NCBI RefSeq assembly: GCF_002216855.1
Contig: NZ_CP022356.1
Coordinates: forward strand, 1 to 64,000
Length of the DNA stretch: 64,000 nt
Source of the DNA: Paraphotobacterium marinum
GTDB lineage: Bacteria; Pseudomonadota; Gammaproteobacteria; Enterobacterales; Vibrionaceae
Direction: 5' to 3'
The notes under the pieces are model-generated. The model was not told the origin of the DNA. It worked only from the letters and a program-made list of their open reading frames with translations, and did no database searches. The position numbers were made by a program, and so were the translations under genes. Positions 3,001 through 30,216 of the stretch are shown in pieces. Within the stretch, counting starts at the first letter, position 1, and the number at the start of each line of letters is the position of its first letter.

Positions 3001-3402
3001 CAAATACACCTGAAGGTGACACTGTCAATGCTACTGGTTGTACAGACTCGGATGATAATGGTGTGCCAGACGCGGATGAAGGAGATGGTAATGGTATAGG
3101 TTTATATACAATTAAAGATAACAGTAGTTATGTTGACCAAAATAGAGGCTTTATCAACGCACATGATGGAGAGGCTTATTTCTTTAATGGTAATATTAAT
3201 TTAAATTTAGAGCCAAGATTAATTACAGGTGGTTACGACCGTTTTGATAATGCAAACTTACCAACTGGTTTAACAAATTCTAATTCAGCTTATCATGAAA
3301 TTGGAAGAGGTTATGATATTTCTATTTCAAGTATAAGTGTACCTAAAATTATGAAGATCAAGCCAGTATTTAACTAATGAAAATCTTTACAAATATGAGT
3401 GG
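1..3402 (+). pseudogene. Frame-broken 5' part of giant TSP3-repeat protein gene
   Basis: This stretch encodes the same protein type as the genes at 9,664 and 17,616, but the frame is broken repeatedly. Up to about 2,215 it is 105-bp TSP3 repeats with core residues DNDGV, CD(N/D)T and DFDxDGCDDAN. The frame breaks at or near 1-170, 1,070, 1,477, 1,765 and 2,110-2,215, mostly by losses of one to a few bases. From 2,220 to 2,710 a TTGESG module can be read only by changing frames (VNNTTGESGKIYKIANR near 2,530). From 2,730 to 3,350 TSP3 repeats lead into a beta-propeller. A last shift near 3,350 joins the open frame at 3,403: after correction the residues LTNENLYKYEWMSFQG align with LTHEYIWTSFQY of the paralogue at 17,616. 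The start lies left of the window. Either a decaying gene or consensus errors at a contig edge; the confinement of the errors to the first 3.4 kb makes the second plausible. Confidence 0.75.
130..2215 (+). repeat. 105-bp tandem repeats, TSP3-like, degraded copy
   Basis: About 20 units of 105 bp (35 codons) made of GAT/GAC-rich calcium-loop sequence. The unit matches those of the genes at 9,664 and 17,616. The piece at 439-693 appears identical over 255 bp to 12,770-13,024 in the second gene. Units are partly deleted at several points, which breaks the frame. Confidence 0.9.
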
Positions 3403-8217: not shown

Positions 8218-8234
8218 TTGGCATATAGTTTGCT
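8218..8234 (+). promoter_or_regulatory. Sigma-54 promoter of lipoprotein gene
   Basis: TTGGCATATAGTTTGCT matches the RpoN consensus TGGCAC-N5-TTGCW, with exactly 10 nt between the GG (-25/-24) and GC (-13/-12) pairs. Predicted +1 is near 8,245, about 25 nt before the ATG. Of the four related sites in the window it has the best -12 element. Confidence 0.8.
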
Positions 8235-8238
8235 TTAA

Positions 8239-8269
8239 ATGAATTAGTTTAACTCTAATTCATTTTTTT
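8239..8269 (+). terminator. Rho-independent terminator overlapping the next gene's leader
   Basis: A 9-bp perfect stem (ATGAATTAG / CTAATTCAT) with a 7-nt loop is followed by seven T and then directly by the ATG at 8,270. It should end transcription from the gene finishing at 8,181. The sigma-54 start predicted for the next gene falls inside the 5' arm, so that transcript would carry only half of the hairpin. Confidence 0.75.
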
Positions 8270-9298
8270 ATGCAAAATTTTAATCACTTTTTTACAATCA
8301 TTAAGAAAATCATCATATCTTTCGTACTTTGCTTATCAGTTGTCTCTTGTGGCGGTAATGAGAGCAATGATAATACATTTAAAGAAAATGAAGGTGTATC
8401 TTCTTCTCAATCTCTTGAAAACAATAATCATGATGAAAATAACGAAAGTGATGAAAATAACGAAAGTGATGAAAATAACGAAAGTGATGAAAATAACGAA
8501 AGTGATGAAAATAACGAAAGTGATGAAAATAATGAGAATGATGAAAATAACGAAAGTGATGAAAATAACGAAAGTGATGAAAATAACGAGAATGATGAAA
8601 ATAACGAGAATGATGAAAATAACGAGAATGATGAAAATAATGAGAATGATGAAAATAATGAGAATGATGAAAATAATGAAAATAATGAAAATAATGAGAA
8701 TGATGAAAATAATGAGAATGATGAAAATAATGAGAACGATCAAAACGAACAAGATAATTGTTCTCAAGGTGAAAATATCGTAAATCTAGTTGTTTATTCA
8801 AATGATTTAATTAAAAATCTACCATCAATGGTTCCTGGATTCGCTGGAACGGGTTTTACACTTTTTGGAAAAATGACGTTTGAGGTTGGTTCATTTGAAT
8901 CAGGTATTTTAACAATTCAAGATGATGATGAATTTTTTGATGATGATTCGTATTTTTTAAACGGGGAGATAATTGTTGACGAATCAGATCCTCAAATTGC
9001 AAAAAACACCTTCTCTATGATAGCCGAAGAGGATATTGTATACTCTTACACGAAATATTTTGTCTCAAACCTAACTACCAATGAATCTGGTATATTATAT
9101 GGAATAGATAATGACTTTGACTTTCCTATCTTTGCAACGACTATAATTATTAATTCTGGAGATTTACTTGAGTGGAATGGCGAGCCTGGGGTAATTCCTG
9201 ATGTCAATGAATCTATAGATATGATTGATGTTGAGTTTGGTAGAGTAAAGTATAGTGATCTACAACAAAGCATTGATGAATCATGTCCTGAAGAATAG
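8270..9298 (+). CDS. Lipoprotein with 18-bp Asp/Glu/Asn repeat and one TTGESG module
   Basis: A 342-residue protein. A signal peptide (basic Lys pair, hydrophobic stretch) ends in a lipobox with Cys27, followed by GGNESNDNTFKE, which matches CGDSNTFKE in the giant genes downstream. Residues 55-156 are about 17 copies of DENNE(S/N), an extremely acidic hydrophilic linker. Residues 165-342 are a TTGESG-type module: VVYSND, then TIQDDDEFFDD, NLTTNESGILYGI, FATTIII-SGD and GRVKYSDLQQS. It looks like a minimal family member, an anchored linker carrying one module without TSP3 repeats or propeller. The start gives a proper signal peptide, but no Shine-Dalgarno site precedes it because the terminator T-run abuts the ATG. 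Product role unknown; likely an outer-membrane-anchored surface protein. Confidence 0.85.
   Translation: MQNFNHFFTIIKKIIISFVLCLSVVSCGGNESNDNTFKENEGVSSSQSLENNNHDENNESDENNESDENNESDENNESDENNESDENNENDENNESDENNESDENNENDENNENDENNENDENNENDENNENDENNENNENNENDENNENDENNENDQNEQDNCSQGENIVNLVVYSNDLIKNLPSMVPGFAGTGFTLFGKMTFEVGSFESGILTIQDDDEFFDDDSYFLNGEIIVDESDPQIAKNTFSMIAEEDIVYSYTKYFVSNLTTNESGILYGIDNDFDFPIFATTIIINSGDLLEWNGEPGVIPDVNESIDMIDVEFGRVKYSDLQQSIDESCPEE
8432..8737 (+). repeat. 18-bp tandem repeat (about 17 units)
   Basis: The unit is GATGAAAATAACGAAAGT and variants, encoding DENNES or DENNEN. Units are nearly identical, with AGT/AAT and AAC/AAT swaps and one NENNEN unit near the 3' end. Such an array is a likely site of slippage-driven length change that stays in frame. 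Confidence 0.95.
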
Positions 9299-9316
9299 AG
9301 CTATATTATGCTTCAA

Positions 9317-9347
9317 TTAATCATATAGTTTATTCAACTATGATTAA
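9317..9347 (+). terminator. Possible terminator hairpin after the 8,270 lipoprotein
   Basis: TTAATCATATAG pairs with CTATGATTAA around a 9-nt loop, with one bulged base. The T-run after it is short and interrupted, so termination is uncertain. Confidence 0.45.
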
Positions 9348-9599
9348 GATTTTAATTAATTCATCACAAGTGTAAATTTGAAAATTATTACATATTTATT
9401 AATGTTTTTTGTAGTAATTTTTAATTTTAAAAATACTTCCTTTTAGTAACCCAAATTTTTAATTTAAAATTTTAAATTTGCAAATATTATAATTTTTTTG
9501 TGAAATTCTGATTTTAAAAAAATTACATATCATGCCCCTTGATATTAAATATTATCATAACTACTTGTTTATATTACAAATAACCAATCATTAATAGTT

Positions 9600-9616
9600 T
9601 TGGCATTAAAAATGCT
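9600..9616 (+). promoter_or_regulatory. Sigma-54 promoter of second giant gene
   Basis: TTGGCATTAAAAATGCT has GG and GC separated by 10 nt, as RpoN requires. Predicted +1 is about 9,627, giving a leader of roughly 37 nt. TTAGT sits at 9,628-9,632, at +1/+2 as in the sister promoters. Confidence 0.78.
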
Positions 9617-9663
9617 TATTAAGTTCATTAGTCAAATTAATGACATCTAATTAAGGATATTTT

Positions 9664-12600
9664 ATGTGCCTTCAAAACTTACTAAATGCTTTCAGAAAAA
9701 TTTTAATAGTAATTTTTTGTACATCATTTCTATATGGTTGCGGTGACAGTAACACATTCAAAGAACAAGATAGTCAACCAGCTCCTCAGGAACAACCGGT
9801 TTCCAATGATCCTGAGCCTGATGCAGACTCAGCCCCAGATAGTGATTCTCCTAATAATGATCCTGATTCCGATTCAAATGGTGATGATAACTCTAGTGTT
9901 TTTTTGGGCTCTGGAAATGATAATGATGATGATAATGATGGGGTTAGTAATAATAACGATGAATGTCCTAATACATTAAATGGAGTGGAAGTTGCTTCAG
10001 ATGGATGCGCAGATTCAGATGGAGATGGTTCATCAGATAATAAAGATGATGATGATGATAATGATGGCGTCAATGATGATGAAGATGCTTGTGACAATAC
10101 GGTTGCAGGTGCTACTGACTTTGACGGTGATGGTTGTGATGATGCCAACGATGACGATGATGATAACGATGGCGTGAATGACGGTGATGATGACTGTGAC
10201 AACACAGTGACGGGCGCAGCTGACTTTGATAATGATGGTTGTGATGATGCCAACGATGATGATGATGATAACGATGGCGTGAATGACGATGATGACGCTT
10301 GTGACAATACGGTATTAGGTGCGACTGATTTTGATAAAGATGGTTGTGATGATGCTAACGATGATGATGATGATAACGATGGCGTGAATGACGATGATGA
10401 CGCTTGTGACAATACGGTATTAGGTGCGACTGATTTTGATAAAGATGGTTGTGATGATGCCAACGATGACGATGATGACAACGATGGTGTCAATGATGGT
10501 GATGATGCTTGTGACAACACAGAGTTAGGTGCAACCGACTTTGATAATGACGGTTGTGATGATGCCAACGATGACGATGATGATAACGATGGTGTCAATG
10601 ATGGCAATGATGCTTGTGATGATACTACACTGGGTGCACTTGATACCGATGGTGATGGTTGTGATGATGCCAACGACGATGATGATGATAACGATGGTGT
10701 GAATGACGAAAATGACAAGTGTCCCAATACACCTATAAATGAGCCTGACTTAGATCAAGATGGCTGCGGTGATGAAACACAAGATGATGACAGCGATGGC
10801 GATGGTGTAGATGACAGTAATGATGATTGTCCAAATACACCATCTGGTGCAACTGACTTTGATAATGACGGTTGTGATGATGCCAACGATGACGATGATG
10901 ACAACGATGGTGTGAACGACGATGATGATGATTGTGACAACACAGAGATAGGCGCAACGGATTTCGATAATGACGGTTGTGATGATGCTAATGATGATGA
11001 TGATGACAACGATGGTGTCAATGACGATGCAGATTCCTGTGATGATACAGTTTTAGGTGCAACTGACTTTGACAGTGATGGTTGTGATGATGCCAACGAT
11101 GATGATGATGATAACGATGGTGTCAATGACGATGATGATGCTTGTGATGATACACCATTAAATACTAATGTTGCTGATAATGGTTGTACAGACACTGATG
11201 ACGATGGTGTGGATGATGACGCAGATGCTTGTGACGACACAGTTTTAGGCGCAACGGATTTTGATAATGACGGTTGCGATGATGCCAACGATGATGATGA
11301 TGATAACGATGGTGTGGATGATGACGCAGATACCTGTGATGATACACCTTTGAACACTAATGTTGCTGACAATGGTTGTACTGACACTGATGATGATGGT
11401 GTAGATGATGATGCGGATGCTTGTGATGATACAGTCGCAGGCGCAGCTGACTTTGATAATGATGGTTGTGATGATGCCAACGATGATGATGATGATAATG
11501 ATGGTGTCAATGACGACGAAGATGCCTGTGATGATACAGTGACGGGCGCAGCTGACTTTGACGGCGATGGTTGTGACGATGCCAATGATGATGATGATGA
11601 CAATGATGGCGTCAATGATGACGACGATGATTGTGATGACACGACATTAGATGCCACTGATACAGACAATGATGGTTGTGATGATGCCAACGATGATGAT
11701 GATGATAACGATGGTGTGAATGACGACGATGATAAGTGTCCTAATACGCCAGAGAATGAGCCTGATTTAGACCAAGATGGATGTGGTGATGATACGCAAG
11801 ATGATGACACTGATGGCGATGGTGTGGATGACAGTAATGATAATTGTCCGGACACTCCTTCTGGTGCCACTGATTTTGATAATGACGGTTGTGATGATGC
11901 CAATGATGACGATGATGATAACGATGGTGTCAATGACGACGATGATGATTGTGACAACACAGAGCTAGGTGCAACGGACTTTGATAATGATGGTTGTGAC
12001 GATGCCAACGATGACGATGATGATAACGATGGCGTGAATGACGATGCAGATTCCTGTGATGATACCGTTCTAGGTGCGACTGATTTTGACAATGATGGTT
12101 GTGATGATGCCAACGATGATGATGATGATAACGATGGCGTCAATGACGACGATGATGACTGTGACAACACAGAGCTAGGTGCAACGGATTTTGATAATGA
12201 TGGTTGTGATGATGCCAACGATGACGATGATGATAACGATGGTGTCAATGACGATGATGACGCCTGTGATGATACTGTCTTAGGCGCAACGGATTTTGAT
12301 GGTGATGGTTGTGATGATGCCAACGATGACGATGATGACAACGATGGTGTGGATGATGACGCAGATGCTTGTGATGATACTGTTCTAGGTGCGACAGATT
12401 TCGATAATGACGGTTGTGACGATGCCAACGATGACGATGATGATAACGATGGCGTGAATGATGATGCAGATGATTGTGACAACACAGAGCTAGGCGCAAC
12501 GGATTTTGATAATGATGGTTGTGATGATGCCAATGACGACGATGATGATAACGATGGCGTCAATGACGACGATGATGACTGTGACAACACAGAGCTAGGT

Positions 12601-15600
12601 GCAACGGATTTTGACGGCGATGGTTGTGATGATGCAAACGATGATGATGATGACAACGATGGCGTGGATGATGATGCAGATGCCTGTGATGATACAGTTC
12701 TAGGTGCAACGGATTTCGATAATGACGGTTGTGATGATGCCAATGATGACGATGATGATAACGATGGCGTCAATGACGACGATGATGACTGTGACAACAC
12801 AGAGCTAGGTGCAACGGATTTTGACGGCGATGGTTGTGATGATGCAAACGATGATGATGATGACAACGATGGCGTGGATGATGATGCAGATTCCTGTGAT
12901 GATACAGTTCTAGGTGCAACGGATTTCGATAATGACGGTTGTGATGATGCCAATGATGACGATGATGACAACGATGGCGTGGATGATGATGCAGATTCCT
13001 GTGATGATACAGTATTAGGCGCAACTGACTTTGACGGTGATGGTTGTGATGATGCCAATGACGACGATGATGATAACGATGGCGTCAATGACGACGATGA
13101 TGACTGTGACAACACAGAGCTAGGTGCAACGGATTTTGACGGCGATGGTTGTGATGATGCCAATGACGACGATGATGATAACGATGGCGTCAATGACGAC
13201 GATGATGACTGTGACAACACAGAGCTAGGTGCAACGGATTTTGACGGCGATGGTTGTGATGATGCCAACGATGATGATGATGACAACGATGGCGTGGATG
13301 ATGACGCAGATGCCTGTGATGATACAGTTCTAGGTGCAACGGATTTCGATAATGACGGTTGTGATGATGCCAATGATGATGATGATGACAACGATGGCGT
13401 GGATGATGATGCAGATGCCTGTGATGATACAGTATTAGGCGCAACGGATTTTGATAATGATGGTTGTGATGATGCCAACGATGATGATGATGACAACGAT
13501 GGCGTGGATGATGATGCAGATGCCTGTGATGATACAGTATTAGGCGCAACGGATTTTGATAATGATGGTTGTGACGATGCCAATGATGACGATGATGACA
13601 ACGATGGTGTGGATGATGACGCAGATGCCTGTGATGATACTGTTCTAGGCGCAGCTGACTTTGACGGTGATGGTTGTGATGATGCCAACGATGATGATGA
13701 TGACAACGATGGCGTCAATGACGACGATGATGACTGTGACAACACAGTGACGGGCGCAGCTGACTTTGACGGTGATGGTTGTGATGATGCCAACGATGAT
13801 GATGATGATAACGATGGTGTAAACGATGATAATGATAATTGTCCAGAAACACCGCTTAATTCAAATGTTAATGATGAAGGGTGTACATTTGAAGATGATG
13901 ATGGGGATGGTGTAGGCAATGACGATGATGATTGTCCAAATACACCAGCAGGTAACCCAGTTAACTCAAATGGTTGTACCGATACCGATGGAGACGGCGT
14001 TCCAGATGTGGATGATGAAGAAAATGGAATTGGTTTACTGACCGTACCTTCAAATCCAAGTTTCTTGACACAACAAGGTGATAATGCAACTCATTTTTAT
14101 AATATTGATTATCACATAGGAACTAACGGGGAAGAGTATTTATACGCCATAGGAAGAACATACGGAGATGGTGGACTTGATTTGCTCATTCACAGAATTG
14201 ATCCAATAAATCATCAATATTTGGCAACTCAAACTCAAAGAAATGATACTAGTAATGGATGGGATTATGCTTCTGAGTTAACAATTGATGATAATGGCAA
14301 TATTTATGTAGTTGCAAGAACACAGGGTGATCATGCTACTATCCATCCTTCATTAGAAACAGGAATGTTAAGTGGTACGCATGGCATTGGTGCTCTAAGT
14401 AAATATGATAAGGATTTAAATTTAATTTGGTTAATTCAACCCGGTCATAGCGGTAATAATAGTGACAGAAGTGTACCTTATACGGTAGATGTTACAAATG
14501 ATTACGTATTTGTTGCAGGTTTCACGCAATCTCCAATACTTGGACAAGGAAGTATTGATGGACAAAATGACGCCTACCTAGAAATTTATGCAAATGAAAA
14601 TGATGCTAGTATATATCCTTCTGATAATTCGCAAGTATTACCAAAAGCAGCTTTACGTTTAGGAACAGAAAAATTTGAGTCTATTTATGACATTAAAGTA
14701 GTTGAATCTGGACAAGACTTGATTATTAATCTTGTGGGATCAACACAAGGAGATATCGATGAATTCACTACTGTCAATAATACGAATAATGGTGTGAATG
14801 ATAACTATGATCCATTCATTGCGAAATATCGTTTTAACACCAGTACTGAAACGTTAACAGAAATATGTGCTTATCAAGATAATAGAACAACTTTTACAGA
14901 TGAAGCGCACAACATTGAAGTGGATAGCGAAAATAACATTTATATTTCAGGTCGAGTTAAAACAACCTCTAATGATAATTCCCGTGATGGTTTTGTGATG
15001 AAATATGACAGTGACTGTCAACCTGTTTGGTCAGATTACTCTATTGTTCGAGCAAGTGGCAATGGTAATGAAGATGCAATAGATGATATTGAACTATCAG
15101 TGAATGAAAATAGGATTTACTTTGTGGGTGATACTTTTGGTGGACAAATGGAAAACCAAGACAATCCAATTGGAGGACTCGGGGGTTATGACTATTTTGT
15201 TGGGGCGATGAACACCATTAATGGTGGGATTATTGATGTACAACAGTTTGGCTCATCTAGCAATAATATTGCTTATGACTTAGCGGTTACAGATAATAAT
15301 GTTATTTATGTTGTAACCAGAAGCTATAGCGATGCCTCTATTTCAGGTGCAAACTCAACTTCTACTCAAACAGGTAGCTCAGTGATTCAAGAGTTTTATG
15401 ATTTATCTTATGATTATGATGGTGATGGCATCATAGCACAGGATGATACTGATAAAGATGGAGTTGAAGATACTTGTCCTGATACACTAGAGCTCACAGG
15501 TGATGTAACCAATCCATTTAAAAATGATTGTCCTGTAGATGCGTCATTTGAAGATGATGATGGCGATGGCGTTGGTGATGATGATGATGATTGTCCGAAT

Positions 15601-17433: not shown

Positions 17434-17450
17434 AGTTAAAAATAACATGC

Positions 17451-17483
17451 AAAAAGCTACACAAATAAGTGTAGCTTTTTTTT
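17451..17483 (+). terminator. Rho-independent terminator after second giant gene
   Basis: AAAAAGCTACAC / GTGTAGCTTTTT form a perfect 12-bp stem with loop AAATAA, followed by further T. It lies 18 bp after the stop codon. Confidence 0.92.
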
Positions 17484-17499
17484 GTTCGCAATTATTTTA

Positions 17500-17508
17500 G
17501 CAATATGC
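17500..17508 (+). promoter_or_regulatory. Candidate upstream activator site
   Basis: GCAATATGC begins 53 nt upstream of the -24 GG of the sigma-54 promoter. The same 9-mer occurs at 30,149-30,157, also exactly 53 nt upstream of the corresponding GG. It was not found at that distance before the genes at 8,270 or 9,664. Confidence 0.4.
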
Positions 17509-17550
17509 AATTTATCGCAACATATAAAAAACAAAATCAACACTTTAATG

Positions 17551-17567
17551 TTGGCATTGATTATGCT
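17551..17567 (+). promoter_or_regulatory. Sigma-54 promoter of third giant gene
   Basis: TTGGCATTGATTATGCT has the 10-nt GG-GC spacing of RpoN promoters. Predicted +1 is about 17,578. A GTCA-N6-TGAC dyad follows at 17,583-17,596, at the same place as in the previous gene. Confidence 0.78.
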
Positions 17568-17615
17568 TAATCATCCTTATTAGTCAAATTTCTGACATTG
17601 TATTAAGGATGTATT

Positions 17616-20600
17616 ATGTGCCTTCAACATTTACTATTCACATTAAAGAAAGTCATTTTAGTTTTGTTATGTTCAACTCTTCTTTTTGCCTGTGGAGACA
17701 GTAACACATTCAAAGAACAAGATAGTCAATCAGCAGCTCAGGAACAACCGGTTTCCAATGATCCTGAGCCTGATGCAGACTCAGCCCCAGATAGTGATTC
17801 TCCTAATAATGATCCTGATTCCGATTCAAATGGTGATGATAACTCTAGTGTTTTTTTGGGCTCTGGAAATGATAATGATGATGATAATGACGGGGTTAGT
17901 AATAATAACGATGAATGTCCTAATACATTAAATGGAGTGGAAGTTGCTTCAGATGGATGCGCAGATTCAGATGGAGATGGTTCATCAGATAATAAAGATA
18001 ATGACGATGATAATGATGGCGTTAATGATGATGAAGATGCTTGTGACAATACGGTTGCAGGTGCTACTGACTTTGACGGTGATGGTTGTGATGATGCCAA
18101 CGATGATGATGATGATAACGATGGCGTGAATGACGATGATGACACTTGTGACAATACGATATTAGGTGCGACTGATTTTGATAATGATGGTTGTGATGAT
18201 GCCAACGATGATGATGATGATAACGACGGTGTCAATGATGATGAGGACGCTTGTGACAATACAGAGAGAGGTGCAACGGATTTCGATAATGATGGTTGTG
18301 ATGATGCCAACGATGATGATGATGATAACGACGGTGTCAATGACGGCGATGATGACTGTGACAACACAGTGACGGGCGCGGCTGACTTTGATAAAGATGG
18401 TTGTGATGATGCCAACGATGACGATGATGATAACGATGGTGTTAATGATGGTGATGATGCTTGTGACAACACAGAGTTAGGTGCAACCGACTTTGATAAT
18501 GACGGTTGTGATGATGCCAACGATGACGATGATGATAACGATGGTGTCAATGATGGCAATGATGCTTGTGATGATACTACACTGGGTGCGCTTGATACCG
18601 ATGGTGATGGTTGTGATGATGCCAACGACGATGATGATGATAACGATGGTGTGAATGACGAAAATGACAAGTGTCCCAATACACCCATAAATGAGCCTGA
18701 TTTAGATCAAGATGGCTGCGGTGATGAAACACAAGATGATGACAGCGATGGCGATGGTGTAGATGACAGTAATGATGATTGTCCAAATACACCATCTGGT
18801 GCAACTGACTTTGATAATGACGGTTGTGATGATGCCAACGATGACGATGATGACAACGATGGTGTGAACGACGATGATGATGATTGTGACAACACAGAGA
18901 TAGGCGCAACGGATTTCGATAATGATGGTTGTGACGATGCAAACGATGACGATGATGATAATGATGGTGTCAATGACGATGATGATTATTGTGACAACAC
19001 AGAGCTAGGCGCAACGGATTTTGATAATGATGGTTGTGACGATGCCAATGATGATGATGATGACAATGATGGTGTCAACGACGATGATGATGCTTGTGAT
19101 GATACACCATTAAATACTAATGTTGCTGATAATGGTTGTACAGACACTGATGACGATGGTGTGGATGATGACGCAGATGCCTGTGACGACACAGAGCTTG
19201 GTGCGACTGACTTTGATAATGACGGTTGTGATGATGCCAACGATGATGATGACGATAACGATGGTGTGGATGATGACGCAGATACCTGTGATGATACACC
19301 TTTGAACACTAATGTTGCTGACAATGGTTGTACTGACACTGATGATGATGGTGTAGATGATGATGCGGATGCTTGTGATGATACAGTCGCAGGCGCAGCT
19401 GACTTTGATAATGATGGTTGTGATGATGCCAACGATGATGATGATGATAATGATGGTGTCAATGACGACGAAGATGCCTGTGATGATACAGTGACGGGCG
19501 CAGCTGACTTTGACGGCGATGGTTGTGACGATGCCAATGATGATGATGATGACAATGATGGCGTCAATGATGACGACGATGATTGTGATGACACGACATT
19601 AGATGCCACTGATACAGACAATGATGGTTGTGATGATGCCAACGATGATGATGATGATAACGATGGTGTGAATGACGACGATGATAAGTGTCCTAATACG
19701 CCAGAGAATGAGCCTGATTTAGACCAAGATGGATGTGGTGATGATACGCAAGATGATGACACTGATGGCGATGGTGTGGATGACAGTAATGATAATTGTC
19801 CGGACACTCCTTCTGGTGCCACCGATTTTGACAATGACGGTTGTGATGATGCCAATGATGACGATGATGATAACGATGGCGTGAATGACGATGCAGATTC
19901 CTGTGATGATACCGTTCTAGGTGCGACTGATTTTGACAATGATGGTTGTGATGATGCCAACGATGATGATGATGATAACGATGGCGTCAATGACGACGAT
20001 GATGACTGTGACAACACAGAGCTAGGTGCAACGGATTTTGATAATGATGGTTGTGATGATGCCAACGATGACGATGATGATAACGATGGTGTCAATGATG
20101 ACGCAGATGATTGTGACAACACAGAGCTAGGCGCAGCTGACTTTGACGGGGATGGTTGTGATGATGCCAACGATGACGATGATGACAACGATGGTGTGGA
20201 TGATGACGCAGATGCCTGTGATGATACTGTTCTAGGCGCAACGGATTTTGATAATGATGGTTGTGATGATGCCAACGATGACGATGATGACAACGATGGT
20301 GTGGATGATGACGCAGATTCCTGTGACGATACGGTTCTAGGCGCAACGGATTTTGACAATGATGGTTGTGATGATGCCAACGATGACGATGATGACAACG
20401 ATGGTGTGGATGATGACGCAGATGCTTGTGATGATACTGTTCTAGGTGCGACAGATTTCGATAATGACGGTTGTGACGATGCCAACGATGACGATGATGA
20501 TAACGATGGCGTGAATGATGATGCAGATGATTGTGACAACACAGAGCTAGGCGCAACGGATTTTGATAATGATGGTTGTGATGATGCCAATGACGACGAT

Positions 20601-23600
20601 GATGATAACGATGGCGTCAATGACGACGATGATGACTGTGACAACACAGAGCTAGGTGCAACGGATTTTGACGGCGATGGTTGTGATGATGCAAACGATG
20701 ATGATGATGACAACGATGGCGTGGATGATGATGCAGATGCCTGTGATGATACAGTTCTAGGTGCAACGGATTTCGATAATGACGGTTGTGATGATGCCAA
20801 TGATGACGATGATGATAACGATGGCGTCAATGACGACGATGATGACTGTGACAACACAGAGCTAGGTGCAACGGATTTTGACGGCGATGGTTGTGATGAT
20901 GCAAACGATGATGATGATGACAACGATGGCGTGGATGATGATGCAGATTCCTGTGATGATACAGTTCTAGGTGCAACGGATTTTGATAATGATGGTTGTG
21001 ACGATGCCAATGATGACGATGATGACAACGATGGTGTGGATGATGACGCAGATGCCTGTGATGATACTGTTCTAGGCGCAGCTGACTTTGACGGTGATGG
21101 TTGTGATGATGCCAATGACGACGATGATGATAACGATGGCGTCAATGACGACGATGATGACTGTGACAACACAGAGCTAGGTGCAACGGATTTTGACGGC
21201 GATGGTTGTGATGATGCCAATGACGACGATGATGATAACGATGGCGTCAATGACGACGATGATGACTGTGACAACACAGAGCTAGGTGCAACGGATTTTG
21301 ACGGCGATGGTTGTGATGATGCAAATGATGACGATGATGATAACGATGGCGTCAATGACGACGATGATGACTGTGACAACACAGAGCTAGGTGCAACGGA
21401 TTTTGATAATGATGGTTGTGATGATGCCAACGATGATGATGATGACAACGATGGCGTGGATGATGATGCAGATGCCTGTGATGATACAGTATTAGGCGCA
21501 ACGGATTTTGATAATGATGGTTGTGACGATGCCAATGATGACGATGATGACAACGATGGTGTGGATGATGACGCAGATGCCTGTGATGATACTGTTCTAG
21601 GCGCAGCTGACTTTGACGGTGATGGTTGTGATGATGCCAATGACGATGATGATGATAACGATGGTGTCAATGACGGCGATGACGACTGTGATGATACAGT
21701 GATGGGTGCGACTGATACAGATAATGACGGTTGTGATGATGCCAACGATGATGATGATGATAACGATGGTGTCAATGATGAAAATGATCAATGTCCTAAT
21801 ACTCCAGAAAATGAGCCTGATTTAGATCAAGATGGATGCGGTGATGATACGCAAGATGATGACACAGATGGAGACGGTGTTGATGACAGCAATGATGCTT
21901 GTCCAGAAACCCCATCTGGTGCGACTGATTTCGATAATGATGGTTGTGATGATGCCAATGATGACGATGATGATAACGATGGTGTGGATGATGACGCAGA
22001 TTCTTGTGATGATACAGTTCTAGGTGCAACGGACTTTGATAATGATGGTTGTGACGATGCCAACGATGATGATGATGACAACGATGGTGTCAATGATGAT
22101 GATGATGCCTGTGATGATACGGTTCTAGGCGCAACGGATTTTGATAATGACGGTTGTGACGATGCCAATGATGACGATGATGACAACGATGGTGTCAATG
22201 ATGATGATGATGATTGTGACAACACAGAGTTAGGCGCAACGGATTTTGATAATGATGGTTGTGATGATGCCAATGATGATGATGATGACAACGATGGTGT
22301 CAATGATGACGCAGATGCCTGTGATGATACAGTTCTAGGTGCAACGGATTTCGATAATGACGGTTGTGACGATGCCAATGATGACGATGATGACAACGAT
22401 GGTGTCAATGATGATGATGATGACTGTGACAACACAGAGTTAGGCGCAACGGATTTTGATAATGATGGTTGTGATGATGCCAATGATGATGATGATGACA
22501 ACGATGGTGTCAATGATGACGCAGATGCCTGTGATGATACAGTTCTAGGTGCAACGGATTTCGATAATGACGGTTGTGACGATGCCAATGATGACGATGA
22601 TGATAATGATGGCGTCAATGATGACGCAGATGCCTGTGATGATACAGTTCTAGGCGCAACGGATTTTGACGGTGATGGTTGTGATGATGCCAATGATGAT
22701 GATGATGACAACGATGGTGTCAATGATGACGCAGATGATTGTGACAACACAGAGCTAGGCGCAGCTGACTTTGACGGGGATGGTTGTGATGATGCTAACG
22801 ATGACGATGATGACAATGATGGCGTGAATGACGATGATGATGATTGTGATGATACAGTTCTAGGTGCAACGGATTTTGACGGTGATGGTTGTGATGATGC
22901 CAATGATGATGATGATGACAACGATGGTGTCAATGATGACGCAGATGATTGTGACAACACAGAGCTAGGCGCAGCTGACTTTGACGGGGATGGTTGTGAT
23001 GATGCTAACGATGACGATGATGATAACGATGGTGTGGATGATGATGCAGATGCTTGTGATGATACTGTTCTAGGCGCAGCTGATTTTGACGGCGATGGTT
23101 GTGATGATGCGAACGATGATGATGACGATAACGATGGTGTGGATGATGATGCAGATGCTTGTGATGATACTGTTCTAGGCGCAGCTGATTTTGACGGCGA
23201 TGGTTGTGACGATGCCAACGATGATGATGATGACAACGATGGTGTGGATGATGACGTAGATGCCTGTGATGATACTGTTCCAGGCGCAGCTGACTTTGAC
23301 GGTGATGGTTGTGACGATGCCAACGATGATGATGATGACAACGATGGTGTCAATGACGATGATGATGACTGTGATGATACAGTTCTAGGTGCAACGGATT
23401 TCGATAATGACGGTTGTGACGATGCCAATGATGATGATGACGATAACGATGGTGTGGATGATGATGCAGATGCTTGTGATGATACTGTTCTAGGTGCAAC
23501 GGATTTCGATAATGATGGTTGTGACGATGCCAATGATGATGATGATGACAACGATGGTGTCAATGACGACAATGACGACTGTGATGATACAGTTCTAGGT

Positions 23601-26600
23601 GCAACGGATTTCGATAATGACGGTTGTGACGATGCCAACGATGATGATGACGATAACGATGGTGTGGATGATGATGCAGATGCTTGTGATGATACTGTTC
23701 TAGGCGCAGCTGATTTTGACGGCGATGGTTGTGATGATGTCAACGATGATGATGACGATAACGATGGTGTGGATGATGATGCAGATGCTTGTGATGATAC
23801 TGTTCTAGGCGCAGCTGATTTTGACGGTGATGGTTGTGATGATGCCAACGATGATGATGATGATAACGATGGTGTGGATGATAACGCAGATGCTTGTGAT
23901 GATACTGTTCTAGGCGCAGCTGATTTTGACGGCGATGGTTGTGACGATGCCAACGATGATGATGATGATAACGATGGTGTCAATGATGATGACGATGACT
24001 GTGACAACACTGAGCTTGGTGCAACGGATTTTGACGGGGATGGTTGTGATGATGCCAACGATGATGATGACGATAACGATGGTGTGGATGATGATGTAGA
24101 TGCTTGTGATGATACTGTTCTAGGCGCAGCTGATTTTGACGGCGATGGTTGTGATGATGCCAACGATGACGATGATGACAACGATGGTGTCAATGATGAT
24201 GACGATGACTGTGACAACACTGAGCTTGGTGCAACGGATTTTGACGGGGATGGTTGTGATGATGCGAATGATGATGATGATGACAACGATGGTGTGGATG
24301 ATGACGCAGATGCTTGTGATGATACAGTTCTAGGTGCAACGGATTTCGATAATGACGGTTGTGACGATGCCAACGATGATGATGATGATAACGATGGTGT
24401 GGATGATAACGCAGATGACTGTGACAACACAGAGCTAGGTGCAACGGATTTTGACGGTGATGGTTGTGACGATGCCAACGATGACGATGATGACAATGAT
24501 GGTGTGGATGATGACGCAGATGCTTGTGATGATACAGTGACGGGCGCAGCTGATTTTGACGGCGATGGTTGTGATGATGCCAACGATGACGATGATGACA
24601 ATGATGGTGTGGATGATGACGCAGATGCTTGTGATGATACAGTGACGGGCGCAGCTGATTTTGACGGCGATGGTTGTGACGATGCCAACGATGACGATGA
24701 TGACAACGATGGTGTGGATGATGACGCAGATGCTTGTGATGATACAGTGACGGGCGCAGCTGATTTTGACGGCGATGGTTGTGACGATGCCAACGATGAT
24801 GATGATGACAACGATGGCGTGGATGATGACGCAGATGCCTGTGATGATACTGTTCTAGGCGCAGCTGACTTTGATGGCGATGGTTGTGATGATGCCAACG
24901 ATGATGATGATGATAACGATGGTGTGGATGATAACGCAGATGACTGTGACAACACAGAGCTAGGTGCAACGGATTTTGACGGTGATGGTTGTGACGATGC
25001 CAACGATGATGATGATGACAACGATGGTGTGGATGATGACGCAGATGCCTGTGATGATACTGTTCTAGGCGCAGCTGACTTTGATAATGATGGTTGTGAT
25101 GATGCCAACGATGATGATGATGATAACGATGGTGTGGATGATAACGCAGATGACTGTGACAACACAGAGCTAGGTGCAACGGATTTTGACGGTGATGGTT
25201 GTGATGATGCCAACGATGATGATGATGATAACGATGGTGTGGATGATAACGCAGATGCTTGTGATGATACTGTTCTAGGCGCAGCTGATTTTGACGGCGA
25301 TGGTTGTGATGATGCGAACGATGATGATGACGATAACGATGGTGTGGATGATGATGCAGATGCTTGTGATGATACTGTTCTAGGCGCAGCTGATTTTGAC
25401 GGCGATGGTTGTGACGATGCCAACGATGATGATGATGACAACGATGGTGTGGATGATGACGTAGATGCCTGTGATGATACTGTTCTAGGTGCAACTGATT
25501 TTGATAATGATGGTTGTGATGATGCCAACGATGATGATGATGACAACGATGGTGTTAATGATGGTGATGATGATTGTGACAACACAGAGTTAGGTGCAAC
25601 GGATTTTGACGGGGATGGTTGTGATGATGCCAATGATGACGATGATGACAACGATGGTGTGGATGATGACGCAGATGCCTGTGATGATACGGTATTAGGT
25701 GCATTAGATACGGATAATGATGGTTGTGATGATGCCAATGATGATGATGATGATGGTGACGGAATTAGTGATGAAAATGAAGGATGTATTGCACCAAGTT
25801 ATGCTGAAAATAATAATGGTGAGTATACAATATTGGTCTATGGGGAAGGTCTACAAAGCTCTGTAGGTGGAGGTGTGTATTTATTAGCGAACAATACCAC
25901 CCATATATTAGGAGCACTCAATCCTGAAACTTTGATTGTTTCTGATGATGATGGAATATTTAATGACAATGTAGCCTCTACGGCTAACCTACAATTAACT
26001 GACAGTGATAGTAATACACAAATAGCTGTAAATTCAGTAGATAATATCATAGCTGGCGATAACGTTTACGCCTCTCTTAGAGTAAGTGTTGTAAACAATA
26101 CTACAGGTGAGTCGGGATCAATACATATTATCAAACATCAAAATCAATACAACAATACATCACATGTATATGCTTCAACAATTTTATTGAGTGAAGGTGA
26201 TTCTGTGACTGTTGATGCAGGAGATAATTTGATCCCACCTAGATTCGTAGGGCAAGTTGACTATGTTAATTTAGTAAGTTCAATGGAATGTGAGGGTGTG
26301 GATAGTGATGGAGATGGTACAGATGATCATTTAGATACAGATAGTGATGATGATGGCGATCCTGATAACACAGATCCATGTCGATTAGATGCCACAAACT
26401 TAGATACCGATGGCGATGGCATTTGTGATAGTACGGATGATGATGATGATGGTGATGGCGTAAACGATGATAATGATAATTGTCCAGAAACACCGCTTAA
26501 TTCTAATGTTAATGATGAAGGATGTATATTTGTTGATGATGATGGGGATGGCGTAGGCAACGACGATGATGATTGTCCAAATACACCAGTTGGTAACCCA

Positions 26601-29600
26601 GTTAACTCAAATGGTTGTACCGATACCGATGGAGACGGTGTTCCAGATGTAGACGATGAAGAAAATGGAATTGGTTTGCTGACTGTGCCTTCAAACTCAA
26701 GCTTCTTGACACAACAAGGTGATAATGGCACACATTTTTATGCTATTGATTCCCATAATGGATTAAACGGTGAATTTTTATATGCTGTTGGTGAAAACTT
26801 AAACAGCCCTGTTTCAGGCACGATTGTTGAACCCTATCAAGGGGGAGATCTCGATATACAAATATCGAAAATTGATCCTTTAACTCACGAGTATATATGG
26901 ACCTCTTTCCAGTATAATGATTTTTATGGTTGGGATTATGCTAATGAGATAACTCTTGATGACAATGGCAATATTTATGTAGTTGCAAGAGTACAGGGTG
27001 ATCATACCACAATCCATCCATCTTTAGATACAGGAATGTTAAGTGGTACGCATGGTATTGGTGCGCTGAGTAAATACGACGAAAATGGAAATTTAGTATG
27101 GTTAATACAACCCGGTCATAGCGGTAACAATAGTGATGCAGCATCTGCAGAAGCCATTGATGTAACAAGTGATTATATATTTGTCGGAGGTAACACTGAA
27201 TCAGATACGATATTGGGACAAGGAAATAACGAAGGAGGATATGATGGGTATTTGGAAATATATGCAAATGTAGATAACAATAGTATTTACACTCAAACAC
27301 CTGTAGCAGCAATTAGATTAGGAACAGATGGGTATGAATCAATCTATGATCTTAAAGTGAAACAAGAAGGACAAGACTTGATTATTAATCTTGTGGGATC
27401 AACACAAGGAGATATCGATGAATTCACTACTGTCAATAATACGAATAATGGTGGGAATACTAACTATGATCCATTTATTGCGAAATATCGTTTTGATACC
27501 AGTACTGAAACGTTAACAGAAATATGTGCTTATCAAGATAATAGAACAACTTTTACAGATGAAGCGCGTAATATTGAAGTGGATAGTGAAAATAACATTT
27601 ATATTTCAGGTCGAGTTAAAACGACCTCTAATAATAATTCTCGAGATGGTTTTGTGATGAAATATGACAGTGACTGTCAACCTGTTTGGTCAGATTACTC
27701 TATTGTTCGAGCAAGTGGCAATGGAAATCAAGATATAATAAATGATATTGAACTATCAGTGAATGAAAATAGGATTTACTTTGTGGGTGCTACATTAGGC
27801 GGACAAATGGAGAATCAGACATTTCCTGGACAAGGTGGTTATGACTATTTTGTTGGGGCGATGAACACCATTAATGGTGGGATTATTGATGTACAACAGT
27901 TTGGCTCATCTAGCAATAATATTGCTTATGACTTAGCGGTTACAGATAATAATGTTATTTATGTTGTAACCAGAAGCGATGGCAATGCTTCTATTTCAGG
28001 TCAGAACTCTACCTCTAATCAAACTGGTAGCTCAGTGATTCAAGAGTTTTATGATTTATCTTATGATTATGATGGTGATGGCATCATAGCACAGGATGAT
28101 ATCGATAAAGATGGAGTTGAAGATACTTGTCCTGATACACTAGAGCTCACAGGTGATGTAACCAACCCATTTAAAAATGATTGTCCTGTTACAGCAACTT
28201 TTGAAGATGATGACGGGGATGGTGTTGGTGATGATGATGATGATTGTCCGAACACACCTATTGGCTCACCTGTAAATGACAGTGGTTGTATCGACACCGA
28301 TGGAGATGGTACCGCAGATGATGAAGATGATTTTCCAAATGATCCAGATGAAGATACAGATACAGATGGTGATGGAACCGGTGACAATGAAGATACCGAT
28401 GATGATAATGATGGAACATCAGATGAAGATGAAGATAATAATGGAACCGATCCACTAGTGTACGAGTCTAGAGAGCATGAGTTTTCAGTCTTTGGGGTAA
28501 AATTCCTACCTGAAAGTGGCATTGATTTCTTTGGCTTACCAACTGGAGGGTTAAATAATCCCATCACATATCAAGTTCCAGGTGATGATTATTATGAAAT
28601 ATTAACAGTTCAAGATGATGATCAGTTTTTAAATGATGTAGATTCAGGTGATACAGAAGATACTTCTGAGCAAACCTTAAACATGAACTTGACTTGGAAC
28701 CAAATCGATTACTTTATGACTTTTTCACAAGATTATCGAACAGAGTTATCTAATGGTGAAAGGTTGAACAGTTACCAATGCTACAATGTTAATAATCTAA
28801 CAACAGGTGAGTCTGGCTTCATTTGTAATATAGGAACTAGTTTAAATGAAACGAAGAAGCATAATGTATTTGCTAAAACAATCAGTATTGTTAGCGGAGA
28901 TACTTTAGAGTATTTTATTACTGATAATTATGACTTAGGACGAGTGCCTTATCGCGATTTATGTTTAATGATATCTTGTGGACATGATTCAGATGACGAT
29001 ACTTTAAGCGATGAATTGGAGGCGACATTAGGAACAGATCCAAATAATCCTGATACAGATGGGGATGGTGTTAATGATCGAGAAGAGTTACAAAATGGAA
29101 CCGATCCAACAGTGGCTGATGATGGCGCTGATATTACGTCAGGTGTCAATTTAGATAATAATTATGGTAGTAGTGCTGAAAGCCACTTGGTTTATAATAC
29201 TGATAACTTGAATTATAACCCACTTTATCGTTCAGCTGATAACCAAGAGATGCCTTGGGCGGTTTCGATTACGCTAAAAACAGATATTGTAACAACTTCA
29301 GTGCCAACTATAGTATGGTCTTATGCTTCAAGCACTATTGATAGAAATAAAGCGCATGCAACTTTGTATATCCAGAATCAAAAGTTAAAATTTGCTTATG
29401 GTACCCACTATAATCATTTAAGGTTTACCTCGGTAGATACGATTGATTTGTCAAGCTGGAGTAGTGTAGTAACGATTTACAAAGGTGGTAAAACAGGTGG
29501 GGGCAGTAATCAATTAAATCAATTTTATAATGAGTTTGAATTTTATTTGGTTGCATTGGATGGAACTGTTCAAGAAATTCCTATGAATGGTGCACATCGA

Positions 29601-30086
29601 AACTATGGCTATAGTAATCAAATGCAAAGTGGTAAGTTCCGTATAGCAGCAACAGGCCAATATAATGGTATAAATAATTGGTATAAACCAGCCTCAAGTG
29701 GAGATACGGTCCAATCATATAATTATTTAAGTGGTTCGATAGCCTATACCATTATGACAACTTTGACGCCATTGAAAGCAGACAATATTACGGATGAAGA
29801 AATCCAAGCAATGGCTTTTGATCCGACTACATGGTTAGCAGATTATAAAGAAGACACTAACTATAGAGTGTCGGGGTCAACTAATATCACTTCAAACTTC
29901 ACATCAAGTGATGCGAGTGATAATTCTTGGAAATCAACTCAAGTATGGATCTTTGATGAGAATAATATAGAGACCAATGGTAACTATGATTACTTATCGA
30001 GTGAAGTAGACTCTCCAACAACAGGAATAGGAGATGCTTATTTGATTTTTAATGATGTTGATGCATCATTATTCGAAAATTATTAA
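17616..30086 (+). CDS. Largest TSP3-repeat lipoprotein: about 70 repeats, SBBP propeller, two TTGESG modules, LamG-like C-terminus
   Basis: 4,156 residues, over 400 kDa. The signal peptide differs from the previous gene's except for the MCLQ start, but from lipobox Cys26 onward (GDSNTFKEQDSQ) the two are almost identical. Residues 89-2,717 are TSP3-like 35-residue repeats. The next parts are a TTGESG module (2,724-2,892; YTILVYGEG, IVSDDDGIFNDN, NNTTGESGSIHII, GQVDYVNLVSS), TSP3 loops, an SBBP propeller (3,019-3,482), TSP3, a second TTGESG module (3,619-3,787) and the LamG-like domain (3,839-4,156). The first module is absent from the previous gene but present, decayed, in the gene at the left edge. 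AAGGA at 17,605 supports the start. The 3' 2 kb differ from the previous gene by only a handful of bases, while the first half of the propeller is clearly diverged. Likely surface stalk; partner and ligand unknown. Confidence 0.88.
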   Translation: MCLQHLLFTLKKVILVLLCSTLLFACGDSNTFKEQDSQSAAQEQPVSNDPEPDADSAPDSDSPNNDPDSDSNGDDNSSVFLGSGNDNDDDNDGVSNNNDECPNTLNGVEVASDGCADSDGDGSSDNKDNDDDNDGVNDDEDACDNTVAGATDFDGDGCDDANDDDDDNDGVNDDDDTCDNTILGATDFDNDGCDDANDDDDDNDGVNDDEDACDNTERGATDFDNDGCDDANDDDDDNDGVNDGDDDCDNTVTGAADFDKDGCDDANDDDDDNDGVNDGDDACDNTELGATDFDNDGCDDANDDDDDNDGVNDGNDACDDTTLGALDTDGDGCDDANDDDDDNDGVNDENDKCPNTPINEPDLDQDGCGDETQDDDSDGDGVDDSNDDCPNTPSGATDFDNDGCDDANDDDDDNDGVNDDDDDCDNTEIGATDFDNDGCDDANDDDDDNDGVNDDDDYCDNTELGATDFDNDGCDDANDDDDDNDGVNDDDDACDDTPLNTNVADNGCTDTDDDGVDDDADACDDTELGATDFDNDGCDDANDDDDDNDGVDDDADTCDDTPLNTNVADNGCTDTDDDGVDDDADACDDTVAGAADFDNDGCDDANDDDDDNDGVNDDEDACDDTVTGAADFDGDGCDDANDDDDDNDGVNDDDDDCDDTTLDATDTDNDGCDDANDDDDDNDGVNDDDDKCPNTPENEPDLDQDGCGDDTQDDDTDGDGVDDSNDNCPDTPSGATDFDNDGCDDANDDDDDNDGVNDDADSCDDTVLGATDFDNDGCDDANDDDDDNDGVNDDDDDCDNTELGATDFDNDGCDDANDDDDDNDGVNDDADDCDNTELGAADFDGDGCDDANDDDDDNDGVDDDADACDDTVLGATDFDNDGCDDANDDDDDNDGVDDDADSCDDTVLGATDFDNDGCDDANDDDDDNDGVDDDADACDDTVLGATDFDNDGCDDANDDDDDNDGVNDDADDCDNTELGATDFDNDGCDDANDDDDDNDGVNDDDDDCDNTELGATDFDGDGCDDANDDDDDNDGVDDDADACDDTVLGATDFDNDGCDDANDDDDDNDGVNDDDDDCDNTELGATDFDGDGCDDANDDDDDNDGVDDDADSCDDTVLGATDFDNDGCDDANDDDDDNDGVDDDADACDDTVLGAADFDGDGCDDANDDDDDNDGVNDDDDDCDNTELGATDFDGDGCDDANDDDDDNDGVNDDDDDCDNTELGATDFDGDGCDDANDDDDDNDGVNDDDDDCDNTELGATDFDNDGCDDANDDDDDNDGVDDDADACDDTVLGATDFDNDGCDDANDDDDDNDGVDDDADACDDTVLGAADFDGDGCDDANDDDDDNDGVNDGDDDCDDTVMGATDTDNDGCDDANDDDDDNDGVNDENDQCPNTPENEPDLDQDGCGDDTQDDDTDGDGVDDSNDACPETPSGATDFDNDGCDDANDDDDDNDGVDDDADSCDDTVLGATDFDNDGCDDANDDDDDNDGVNDDDDACDDTVLGATDFDNDGCDDANDDDDDNDGVNDDDDDCDNTELGATDFDNDGCDDANDDDDDNDGVNDDADACDDTVLGATDFDNDGCDDANDDDDDNDGVNDDDDDCDNTELGATDFDNDGCDDANDDDDDNDGVNDDADACDDTVLGATDFDNDGCDDANDDDDDNDGVNDDADACDDTVLGATDFDGDGCDDANDDDDDNDGVNDDADDCDNTELGAADFDGDGCDDANDDDDDNDGVNDDDDDCDDTVLGATDFDGDGCDDANDDDDDNDGVNDDADDCDNTELGAADFDGDGCDDANDDDDDNDGVDDDADACDDTVLGAADFDGDGCDDANDDDDDNDGVDDDADACDDTVLGAADFDGDGCDDANDDDDDNDGVDDDVDACDDTVPGAADFDGDGCDDANDDDDDNDGVNDDDDDCDDTVLGATDFDNDGCDDANDDDDDNDGVDDDADACDDTVLGATDFDNDGCDDANDDDDDNDGVNDDNDDCDDTVLGATDFDNDGCDDANDDDDDNDGVDDDADACDDTVLGAADFDGDGCDDVNDDDDDNDGVDDDADACDDTVLGAADFDGDGCDDANDDDDDNDGVDDNADACDDTVLGAADFDGDGCDDANDDDDDNDGVNDDDDDCDNTELGATDFDGDGCDDANDDDDDNDGVDDDVDACDDTVLGAADFDGDGCDDANDDDDDNDGVNDDDDDCDNTELGATDFDGDGCDDANDDDDDNDGVDDDADACDDTVLGATDFDNDGCDDANDDDDDNDGVDDNADDCDNTELGATDFDGDGCDDANDDDDDNDGVDDDADACDDTVTGAADFDGDGCDDANDDDDDNDGVDDDADACDDTVTGAADFDGDGCDDANDDDDDNDGVDDDADACDDTVTGAADFDGDGCDDANDDDDDNDGVDDDADACDDTVLGAADFDGDGCDDANDDDDDNDGVDDNADDCDNTELGATDFDGDGCDDANDDDDDNDGVDDDADACDDTVLGAADFDNDGCDDANDDDDDNDGVDDNADDCDNTELGATDFDGDGCDDANDDDDDNDGVDDNADACDDTVLGAADFDGDGCDDANDDDDDNDGVDDDADACDDTVLGAADFDGDGCDDANDDDDDNDGVDDDVDACDDTVLGATDFDNDGCDDANDDDDDNDGVNDGDDDCDNTELGATDFDGDGCDDANDDDDDNDGVDDDADACDDTVLGALDTDNDGCDDANDDDDDGDGISDENEGCIAPSYAENNNGEYTILVYGEGLQSSVGGGVYLLANNTTHILGALNPETLIVSDDDGIFNDNVASTANLQLTDSDSNTQIAVNSVDNIIAGDNVYASLRVSVVNNTTGESGSIHIIKHQNQYNNTSHVYASTILLSEGDSVTVDAGDNLIPPRFVGQVDYVNLVSSMECEGVDSDGDGTDDHLDTDSDDDGDPDNTDPCRLDATNLDTDGDGICDSTDDDDDGDGVNDDNDNCPETPLNSNVNDEGCIFVDDDGDGVGNDDDDCPNTPVGNPVNSNGCTDTDGDGVPDVDDEENGIGLLTVPSNSSFLTQQGDNGTHFYAIDSHNGLNGEFLYAVGENLNSPVSGTIVEPYQGGDLDIQISKIDPLTHEYIWTSFQYNDFYGWDYANEITLDDNGNIYVVARVQGDHTTIHPSLDTGMLSGTHGIGALSKYDENGNLVWLIQPGHSGNNSDAASAEAIDVTSDYIFVGGNTESDTILGQGNNEGGYDGYLEIYANVDNNSIYTQTPVAAIRLGTDGYESIYDLKVKQEGQDLIINLVGSTQGDIDEFTTVNNTNNGGNTNYDPFIAKYRFDTSTETLTEICAYQDNRTTFTDEARNIEVDSENNIYISGRVKTTSNNNSRDGFVMKYDSDCQPVWSDYSIVRASGNGNQDIINDIELSVNENRIYFVGATLGGQMENQTFPGQGGYDYFVGAMNTINGGIIDVQQFGSSSNNIAYDLAVTDNNVIYVVTRSDGNASISGQNSTSNQTGSSVIQEFYDLSYDYDGDGIIAQDDIDKDGVEDTCPDTLELTGDVTNPFKNDCPVTATFEDDDGDGVGDDDDDCPNTPIGSPVNDSGCIDTDGDGTADDEDDFPNDPDEDTDTDGDGTGDNEDTDDDNDGTSDEDEDNNGTDPLVYESREHEFSVFGVKFLPESGIDFFGLPTGGLNNPITYQVPGDDYYEILTVQDDDQFLNDVDSGDTEDTSEQTLNMNLTWNQIDYFMTFSQDYRTELSNGERLNSYQCYNVNNLTTGESGFICNIGTSLNETKKHNVFAKTISIVSGDTLEYFITDNYDLGRVPYRDLCLMISCGHDSDDDTLSDELEATLGTDPNNPDTDGDGVNDREELQNGTDPTVADDGADITSGVNLDNNYGSSAESHLVYNTDNLNYNPLYRSADNQEMPWAVSITLKTDIVTTSVPTIVWSYASSTIDRNKAHATLYIQNQKLKFAYGTHYNHLRFTSVDTIDLSSWSSVVTIYKGGKTGGGSNQLNQFYNEFEFYLVALDGTVQEIPMNGAHRNYGYSNQMQSGKFRIAATGQYNGINNWYKPASSGDTVQSYNYLSGSIAYTIMTTLTPLKADNITDEEIQAMAFDPTTWLADYKEDTNYRVSGSTNITSNFTSSDASDNSWKSTQVWIFDENNIETNGNYDYLSSEVDSPTTGIGDAYLIFNDVDASLFENY
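17880..25765 (+). repeat. 105-bp tandem repeats of third giant gene
   Basis: Roughly 70 in-frame 105-bp units over nearly 7.9 kb. Higher-order copying is visible: a 210-bp pair of units around 22,200-22,410 is repeated at 22,410-22,620. The 5' third keeps the unit order of the previous gene; the middle is expanded. Confidence 0.93.
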
Positions 30087-30103
30087 TGTAGTATCTAATT
30101 TAA

Positions 30104-30126
30104 GAGCCATACCTATTGTATGGCTC
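30104..30126 (+). terminator. Hairpin after third giant gene
   Basis: GAGCCATAC / GTATGGCTC form a perfect 9-bp stem around CTATT, 18 bp past the stop. There is no T-run, so it is either a weak terminator or a 3'-end protecting hairpin. Confidence 0.6.
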
Positions 30127-30148
30127 CGTCAATATTTAAAAAATATTT

Positions 30149-30157
30149 GCAATATGC
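30149..30157 (+). promoter_or_regulatory. Candidate upstream activator site
   Basis: GCAATATGC, second occurrence, again 53 nt upstream of the promoter's -24 GG. It lies inside an A/T-rich stretch with ATATTT on both sides. Confidence 0.4.
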
Positions 30158-30199
30158 TAAATATTTAAAGCATTGTTATTGTAAATCAATGTCTTATTT

Positions 30200-30216
30200 T
30201 TGGCATGTTTAATGCT
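30200..30216 (+). promoter_or_regulatory. Sigma-54 promoter of fourth giant gene
   Basis: TTGGCATGTTTAATGCT has the canonical 10-nt GG-GC spacing. Predicted +1 is about 30,227. AGTC-N7-GACT (30,231-30,245) lies just downstream. Confidence 0.78.

Follow-up and report, generated by a model that had tools for sequence, protein, structure and literature searches.

Six genes for predicted, often giant, lipoproteins on chromosome II (Chr II) of Paraphotobacterium marinum NSCS20N07D (Vibrionaceae) are each preceded by a -24/-12 element that is very probably a sigma-54 (RpoN) promoter, and motifs upstream of these elements suggest that the quorum-sensing regulator LuxO probably acts directly on at least three of them in a genome in which Qrr small RNAs were not recognizable. 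P. marinum is a culturable ocean bacterium with a small genome. The window analyzed here comprises bases 1 to 64,000 of Chr II, which is circular, and position 1 falls within a lipoprotein gene that spans the start of the record. The genome (2,593,992 bp in three contigs) consists of two circular chromosomes (1,426,504 and 1,161,949 bp) and a 5.5-kb plasmid, and was assembled from PacBio RSII data with HGAP only (PMC5649133). Quorum sensing, sigma factors, lipoproteins and adhesion are mentioned nowhere in the text of the genome paper (PMC5649133).

A preliminary description had placed the sequence TTGGCAT-N5-(A/T)TGCT before four lipoprotein genes of one cluster, and all four occurrences were recovered as exact matches on the plus strand: TTGGCATATAGTTTGCT at 8218..8234 (342-amino-acid [aa] lipoprotein), TTGGCATTAAAAATGCT at 9600..9616 (2589 aa), TTGGCATTGATTATGCT at 17551..17567 (4156 aa) and TTGGCATGTTTAATGCT at 30200..30216 (∼3.7 kaa). 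They are the only matches in the 64-kb window (0.02 expected; 0 of 100 shuffles reached four). Each is intergenic and lies on the coding strand, the gap between the invariant dinucleotides is exactly 10 nt (GG-N10-GC) in every case, and the distance from GC to start codon is 36, 48, 49 and 48 nt, respectively (36 nt to ATG 8270 for the first; for the last gene, counted to ATG 30264 rather than to TTG 30249 chosen by the ORF caller). Genome-wide, the pattern TTGGCAYN5WTGCW gave 11 matches on both strands (reversed-pattern control: 0), of which six precede lipoproteins with a CG..NT(F/Y)KE N-terminus, namely the four in the window plus Chr II 1,159,149 and Chr II 504,699. A further strict match lies 37 nt before the ATG of glnK, a classical sigma-54 target. 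The looser pattern TTGGCAYN6TGC gave 20 matches in the genome; those just 5′ of genes belong to the six family lipoproteins, glnK, a gene at 954 kb and a gene at 1,107 kb (95-residue protein), both on Chr II, and the remainder fall inside genes, apart from one that no gene follows. The element is therefore not confined to the cluster, as it is found also before a sixth family member (Chr II 504,754) and before glnK; nor does the cluster stop at four genes, since it holds five in tandem, the fifth with the same promoter at Chr II 1,159,149. Of the seven CG..NT(F/Y)KE lipoproteins in the genome, six carry the site; the seventh (NTYKE, Chr II ∼464 kb) has no -24/-12 element at ≤3 mismatches. Other sites of this kind were noted outside the family. 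On Chr I, ATGGCACTTTTTATGCT at 72456 is sigma-54-like and lies 18 nt 5′ of a Card1-like endonuclease gene (PF09002), and the sigma-54-like ATGGCATTTATTTTGCT at 25401 lies 32 nt 5′ of fliD in a flagellar cluster. At Chr II 954014, a strict site precedes the gene for a secreted protein of 429 residues that has coiled-coil-like repeats and a C-terminus resembling a trimeric-autotransporter anchor, though without Pfam confirmation.

The tandem genes in the window are all on the plus strand. The first (1..8181) is the 3′ portion of a giant gene with its start at Chr II 1,159,211, and is split into several ORFs, probably due to sequencing errors. It is followed by genes for a 342-aa lipoprotein (8270..9298; SVVSC-GGNESNDNTFKE N-terminus, DENNES repeats, C-terminal TT(G/N)ESG domain), a giant 2589-aa lipoprotein (9664..17433; CGDSNTFKE N-terminus, Asp-rich DxDxDG-type repeats), its recent 4156-aa paralogue (17616..30086; CGDSNTFKE N-terminus) and a giant lipoprotein of ∼3719 aa counted from ATG 30264 (30264..41423; CGDSDHNNTFKE N-terminus, DUF1554 near the C-terminus). 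The sixth member has 266 residues with PDPN repeats, and the seventh (Chr II 464 kb) ∼420 residues with RCC1-like repeats. The giants are made mainly of Asp-rich repeats and a recurring ∼170-residue TTGESG domain with no match in Pfam; as TT(G/N)ESG...DDD, the domain recurs within 3403-8181, 8270-9298, 9664-17433 and 17616-30086 of the window. Scanning genome contigs for the C-terminal domain returned a single, distant locus elsewhere, which belongs to a Rhodobacteraceae MAG (DOHJ01000203); the structure predicted for the domain is rich in beta strands but of poor quality (pLDDT 61). Opposite the Asp-rich repeats, the minus strand has antisense open frames as long as 2839 codons (30422-38941, 10755-13919 and 21827-25738), likely a by-product of repeat codons. 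The lipobox cysteines, as read from the sequences, follow a hydrophobic signal peptide and have Gly rather than Asp at +2 (VVSC-G, LYGC-G, LFAC-G, LISC-G and LSAC-G). Under the usual +2 rule, lipoproteins with no Asp after the lipobox Cys go to the outer membrane, which points to an outer-membrane location for the CG..NT(F/Y)KE lipoproteins. A role at the cell surface may be supposed from these features, and the “stalk” function given to the giants in the preliminary description is a guess. A search of 99 relatives for the CGDSNTFKE-type motif found no such lipoprotein, so a cross-species footprint of the promoters is impossible.

Conservation around the six lipoprotein promoters is concentrated in the element itself, with a mean identity of 94% in the core against 34 to 37% for the spacer of 5 bases and for flanks of 60 bp upstream and 30 bp downstream. 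Genes 17616 and 30264 have distantly related intergenic regions in front of them (aligning above shuffles), in which the longest conserved blocks comprise GCAATATGC, the -24/-12 core, the AAGGAT ribosome site and, close to the predicted start, TATTAGTC, a pattern that selection on a promoter would leave. These alignable regions, together with the near-identical N-termini of genes 9664, 17616 and Chr II 1,159,211, might instead indicate that an upstream region was copied along with the gene and that the motif is a leftover unused as a promoter. However, the core has stayed nearly invariant while flanks and spacer diverged, the genes at 504,699 and 8218 retain the site without being recent copies, and the unrelated glnK has the same element, making simple duplication an extremely unlikely explanation. 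In the leaders that follow sites 9600, 17551, 30200 and Chr II 1,159,149, a conserved ATTAGTC / TTGTC ... TGACAT-like inverted repeat begins at about the predicted transcription start; hairpins in the leaders have about the stability seen in shuffled ones. The leader of the 342-aa gene (8236-8269, between the -12 element and ATG 8270) reads AATGAATTAG-TTTAACT-CTAATTCATT followed by a T-run, which is terminator- or attenuator-like and without an obvious ribosome site.

The first reading depended on the presence of rpoN, and the gene is present at Chr I 419346-420723; its C-terminal RpoN box (ARRTVAKYREE) is complete, although the assembled copy has two frameshifts. Both breaks lie at T-runs and resemble single missing bases; given an assembly from PacBio data alone and similar breaks in the repeats of the window itself, sequencing error is the likelier cause, though not proven. 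The broken frame would also suit a scheme in which sigma-70 promoters or read-through from upstream transcribe the lipoprotein genes and sigma-54 has no role, as would a sigma-70-like match (10/12) at 9464-9493 upstream of gene 9664. Nevertheless, sigma-70-like matches occur only at the level of shuffled sequence, none precedes the start codon of either 17616 or 30264 on the plus strand, and an intrinsic-terminator-like hairpin (17451..17480, plus strand) separates the 2589-aa gene from the 4156-aa gene, so that the latter needs a promoter of its own; taken with the nature of the rpoN breaks, this leaves transcription without sigma-54 very unlikely. Four clear sigma-54-activator-type proteins (PF00158) are encoded: NtrC (above cut-off), an FlbD/FlrC-like protein in the flagellar cluster, LuxO and a TyrR-like protein. 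The chance counts, the intergenic position, the core kept amid diverged flanks, rpoN, the four PF00158 proteins and the motif at glnK all argue for the sigma-54 promoter common to the lipoprotein genes that had first been proposed, and we consider it very probable that the sites before these genes would be used as such.

The activator had initially been left unnamed, with motility or nitrogen control as possibilities, and can now be narrowed down. The LuxO box motif is TTGCAWWWTGCAA (PMC10162802), and was tested here as the palindrome TTGCA-N3-TGCAA (TTGCANNNTGCAA). Candidate LuxO enhancers with one mismatch were found at 17498..17510 (TAGCAATATGCAA) and 30147..30159 (TTGCAATATGCTA), each 53 bp upstream of its -24 element (17551 and 30200, respectively); GCAATATGC is kept between both intergenic regions, and the two boxes are not fully independent because both sit in related intergenic DNA. 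A third box, with zero to one mismatch, lies at Chr II 504,627, at -72 of promoter 504,699. Thus, for three of six lipoprotein promoters the 150 bp upstream contain a box at ≤1 mismatch, a count reached in 0 of 2000 dinucleotide shuffles. As the resemblance to LuxO boxes was spotted by eye before testing, a fairer test is a scan of palindromes that have two or more G/C in each half-site and a spacer of 0 to 8, and among the 7,488 tested only TTGCA-N3-TGCAA reached three of six promoters (≤1 mismatch). Promoters 9600 and 1,159,149 have boxes with two mismatches only (for 9600, the weak LuxO-box-like TTTAAATTTGCAA at 9471..9483, alone not significant). Promoter 8218 has none at ≤2 mismatches within 300 bp (best: four mismatches); the DNA upstream of it is the end of the preceding gene, and its activation may come from the enhancers of its neighbors acting from a distance or from another activator. 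Six exact LuxO boxes exist in the genome, only one of them near a sigma-54 site and the others inside genes. As a positive control, 19 of 19 qrr promoters from relatives in the family showed the same type of -24/-12 element together with LuxO boxes at ≤1 mismatch, mostly at -72 to -107, and the element at 30200 (TTGGCATGTTTAATGCT) differs by one base from that of one relative's qrr promoter (TTGGCATGTTAAATGCTT).

Control by a different sigma-54 activator, either NtrC or the FlbD/FlrC-like protein, would have the lipoproteins expressed under nitrogen limitation or together with motility. The genome encodes both, each with an intact GAFTGA-type loop, glnK has the same strict site as the lipoproteins, fliD has a related one, and promoter 8218 lacks a LuxO box. 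Against this, the 17-base form of the NtrC motif fits five of the six lipoprotein promoters with five to six mismatches, and 8218 with three, inside a coding region. Furthermore, none of the sigma-54 sites outside the family (glnK, fliD, Card1-like, 954014 and 1106828) has a LuxO box, indicating that the boxes track lipoproteins and not sigma-54 sites generally. Nitrogen or motility control is thus less likely, because upstream enrichment is seen for the LuxO enhancer motif but not for NtrC motifs; we regard an activator other than LuxO as doubtful. Activation by LuxO of at least three of the sigma-54 lipoprotein promoters is the reading we would favor as probable.

A LuxO homologue is encoded at Chr I 121807-123144 in the order uvrB-luxO-luxU. 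The best NCBIfam models for the two regulators are LuxO (631 bits) and LuxU (57 bits), both scores being below curated cut-offs that were set for Vibrio (800 bits for the LuxO equivalog NF041946, still the best of all NCBIfam models here). On the LuxO model, 646 bits are reached by a homologue from a different family in the same order, and the P. marinum protein is therefore named from its best match and genomic neighborhood instead of the cut-off. Its recognition helix (STIYRKL) retains every residue that matters in V. cholerae LuxO (PMC11407668). The loop that contacts sigma-54 reads GAFTDA, compared to GAFTGA in 10 of 10 homologues; GAFTDA is among the variants tolerated in D. vulgaris (PMC4641369), whereas VfmH, a GAFTDA protein, showed no interaction with sigma-54 (PMC10714721).

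In Vibrio, low cell density leads to phosphorylated LuxO, which activates the Qrr small RNAs, and to our knowledge LuxO there is known almost solely in this capacity. A Qrr core pattern that occurs in 31 of 36 relatives in the family had no match in P. marinum at ≤3 mismatches, and the covariance model based on 19 Qrr sequences of relatives scored at best 20.5 bits in P. marinum (E = 0.15), against 85 to 117 bits in four Qrr-bearing genomes. Rfam RF00195 was rejected as a Qrr model, as it represents RsmY. In 8 of 8 relatives inspected, a qrr gene lies between luxO and uvrB; in P. marinum, this gap is 81 bp and contains no LuxO box, sigma-54 site or qrr. Absence of Qrr alongside LuxO is not unique to P. 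marinum, because three other Vibrionaceae relatives likewise have no Qrr match and keep a LuxO homologue.

Direct action of LuxO on the lipoprotein genes is proposed because no Qrr is recognizable here. Under this proposal, the four sites in the window and the two elsewhere on Chr II would be RpoN promoters serving one lipoprotein gene each, and LuxO, phosphorylated via LuxU, would be the likeliest enhancer-binding protein. It would bind the TTGCA-N3-TGCAA boxes, which lie ∼50 to 70 bp before the -24 element, at three or more promoters and hydrolyze ATP, opening the RpoN holoenzyme complex, so that at low cell density LuxO would directly turn on large predicted outer-membrane lipoproteins. The sites, boxes and genes and their statistics are direct observations; the overall scheme of direct LuxO-RpoN control is a model built on them, which we judge to be the best explanation and reasonably likely to be right, and its cell-density logic would follow from LuxO in Vibrio. 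Whether it amounts to a rewired output of quorum sensing, in which LuxO and RpoN without Qrr act on giant, recently duplicated Chr II lipoproteins and low density brings a new cell surface with no small-RNA step, is put forward more tentatively, as a possibility a little short of probable. If true, it would show how LuxO functions in the absence of its small-RNA target, and would tie giant repeat lipoproteins to a specific signal, cell density. The finding first described is real and better than stated, because the site reaches beyond the cluster and a testable activator can be named; it is a variant of known control, not a new kind.

The closest counterparts are the Vibrio qrr promoters driven by phosphorylated LuxO and RpoN, which share the TTGGCAY-N6-TGC element and, with three of the six lipoprotein promoters, upstream TTGCAWWWTGCAA boxes at ≤1 mismatch (PMC10162802, PMC10328515; 19 relatives). 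In contrast to these, the P. marinum sites would drive protein-coding lipoprotein genes in a genome without a recognizable Qrr, there is one box per promoter, and two of the boxes, at -53, are closer than in every qrr promoter read. In V. cholerae, ChIP-seq found LuxO bound only to qrr1-4 and one weak site (PMC10328515). The syp locus of V. fischeri, controlled by SypG and RpoN, is similar in combining a LuxO-like activator, sigma-54, cell-surface genes and a related motif (PMC10162802); however, the syp product is a polysaccharide, SypG belongs to another phosphorelay, and the SypG motif fits the lipoprotein promoters worse than the LuxO motif. Surface lipoproteins are also under sigma-54 control in Borrelia, where Rrp2, RpoN and RpoS govern OspC and other outer lipoproteins, but control there is indirect via RpoS (PMC3037356), while in P. 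marinum a -24/-12 site lies directly before each gene. More broadly, Francke et al. (2011; PMC3162934) associated sigma-54 sites with lipoproteins, polysaccharides and flagella; LuxO is unmentioned there, and P. marinum adds to this general theme a specific family of paralogues and a candidate activator.
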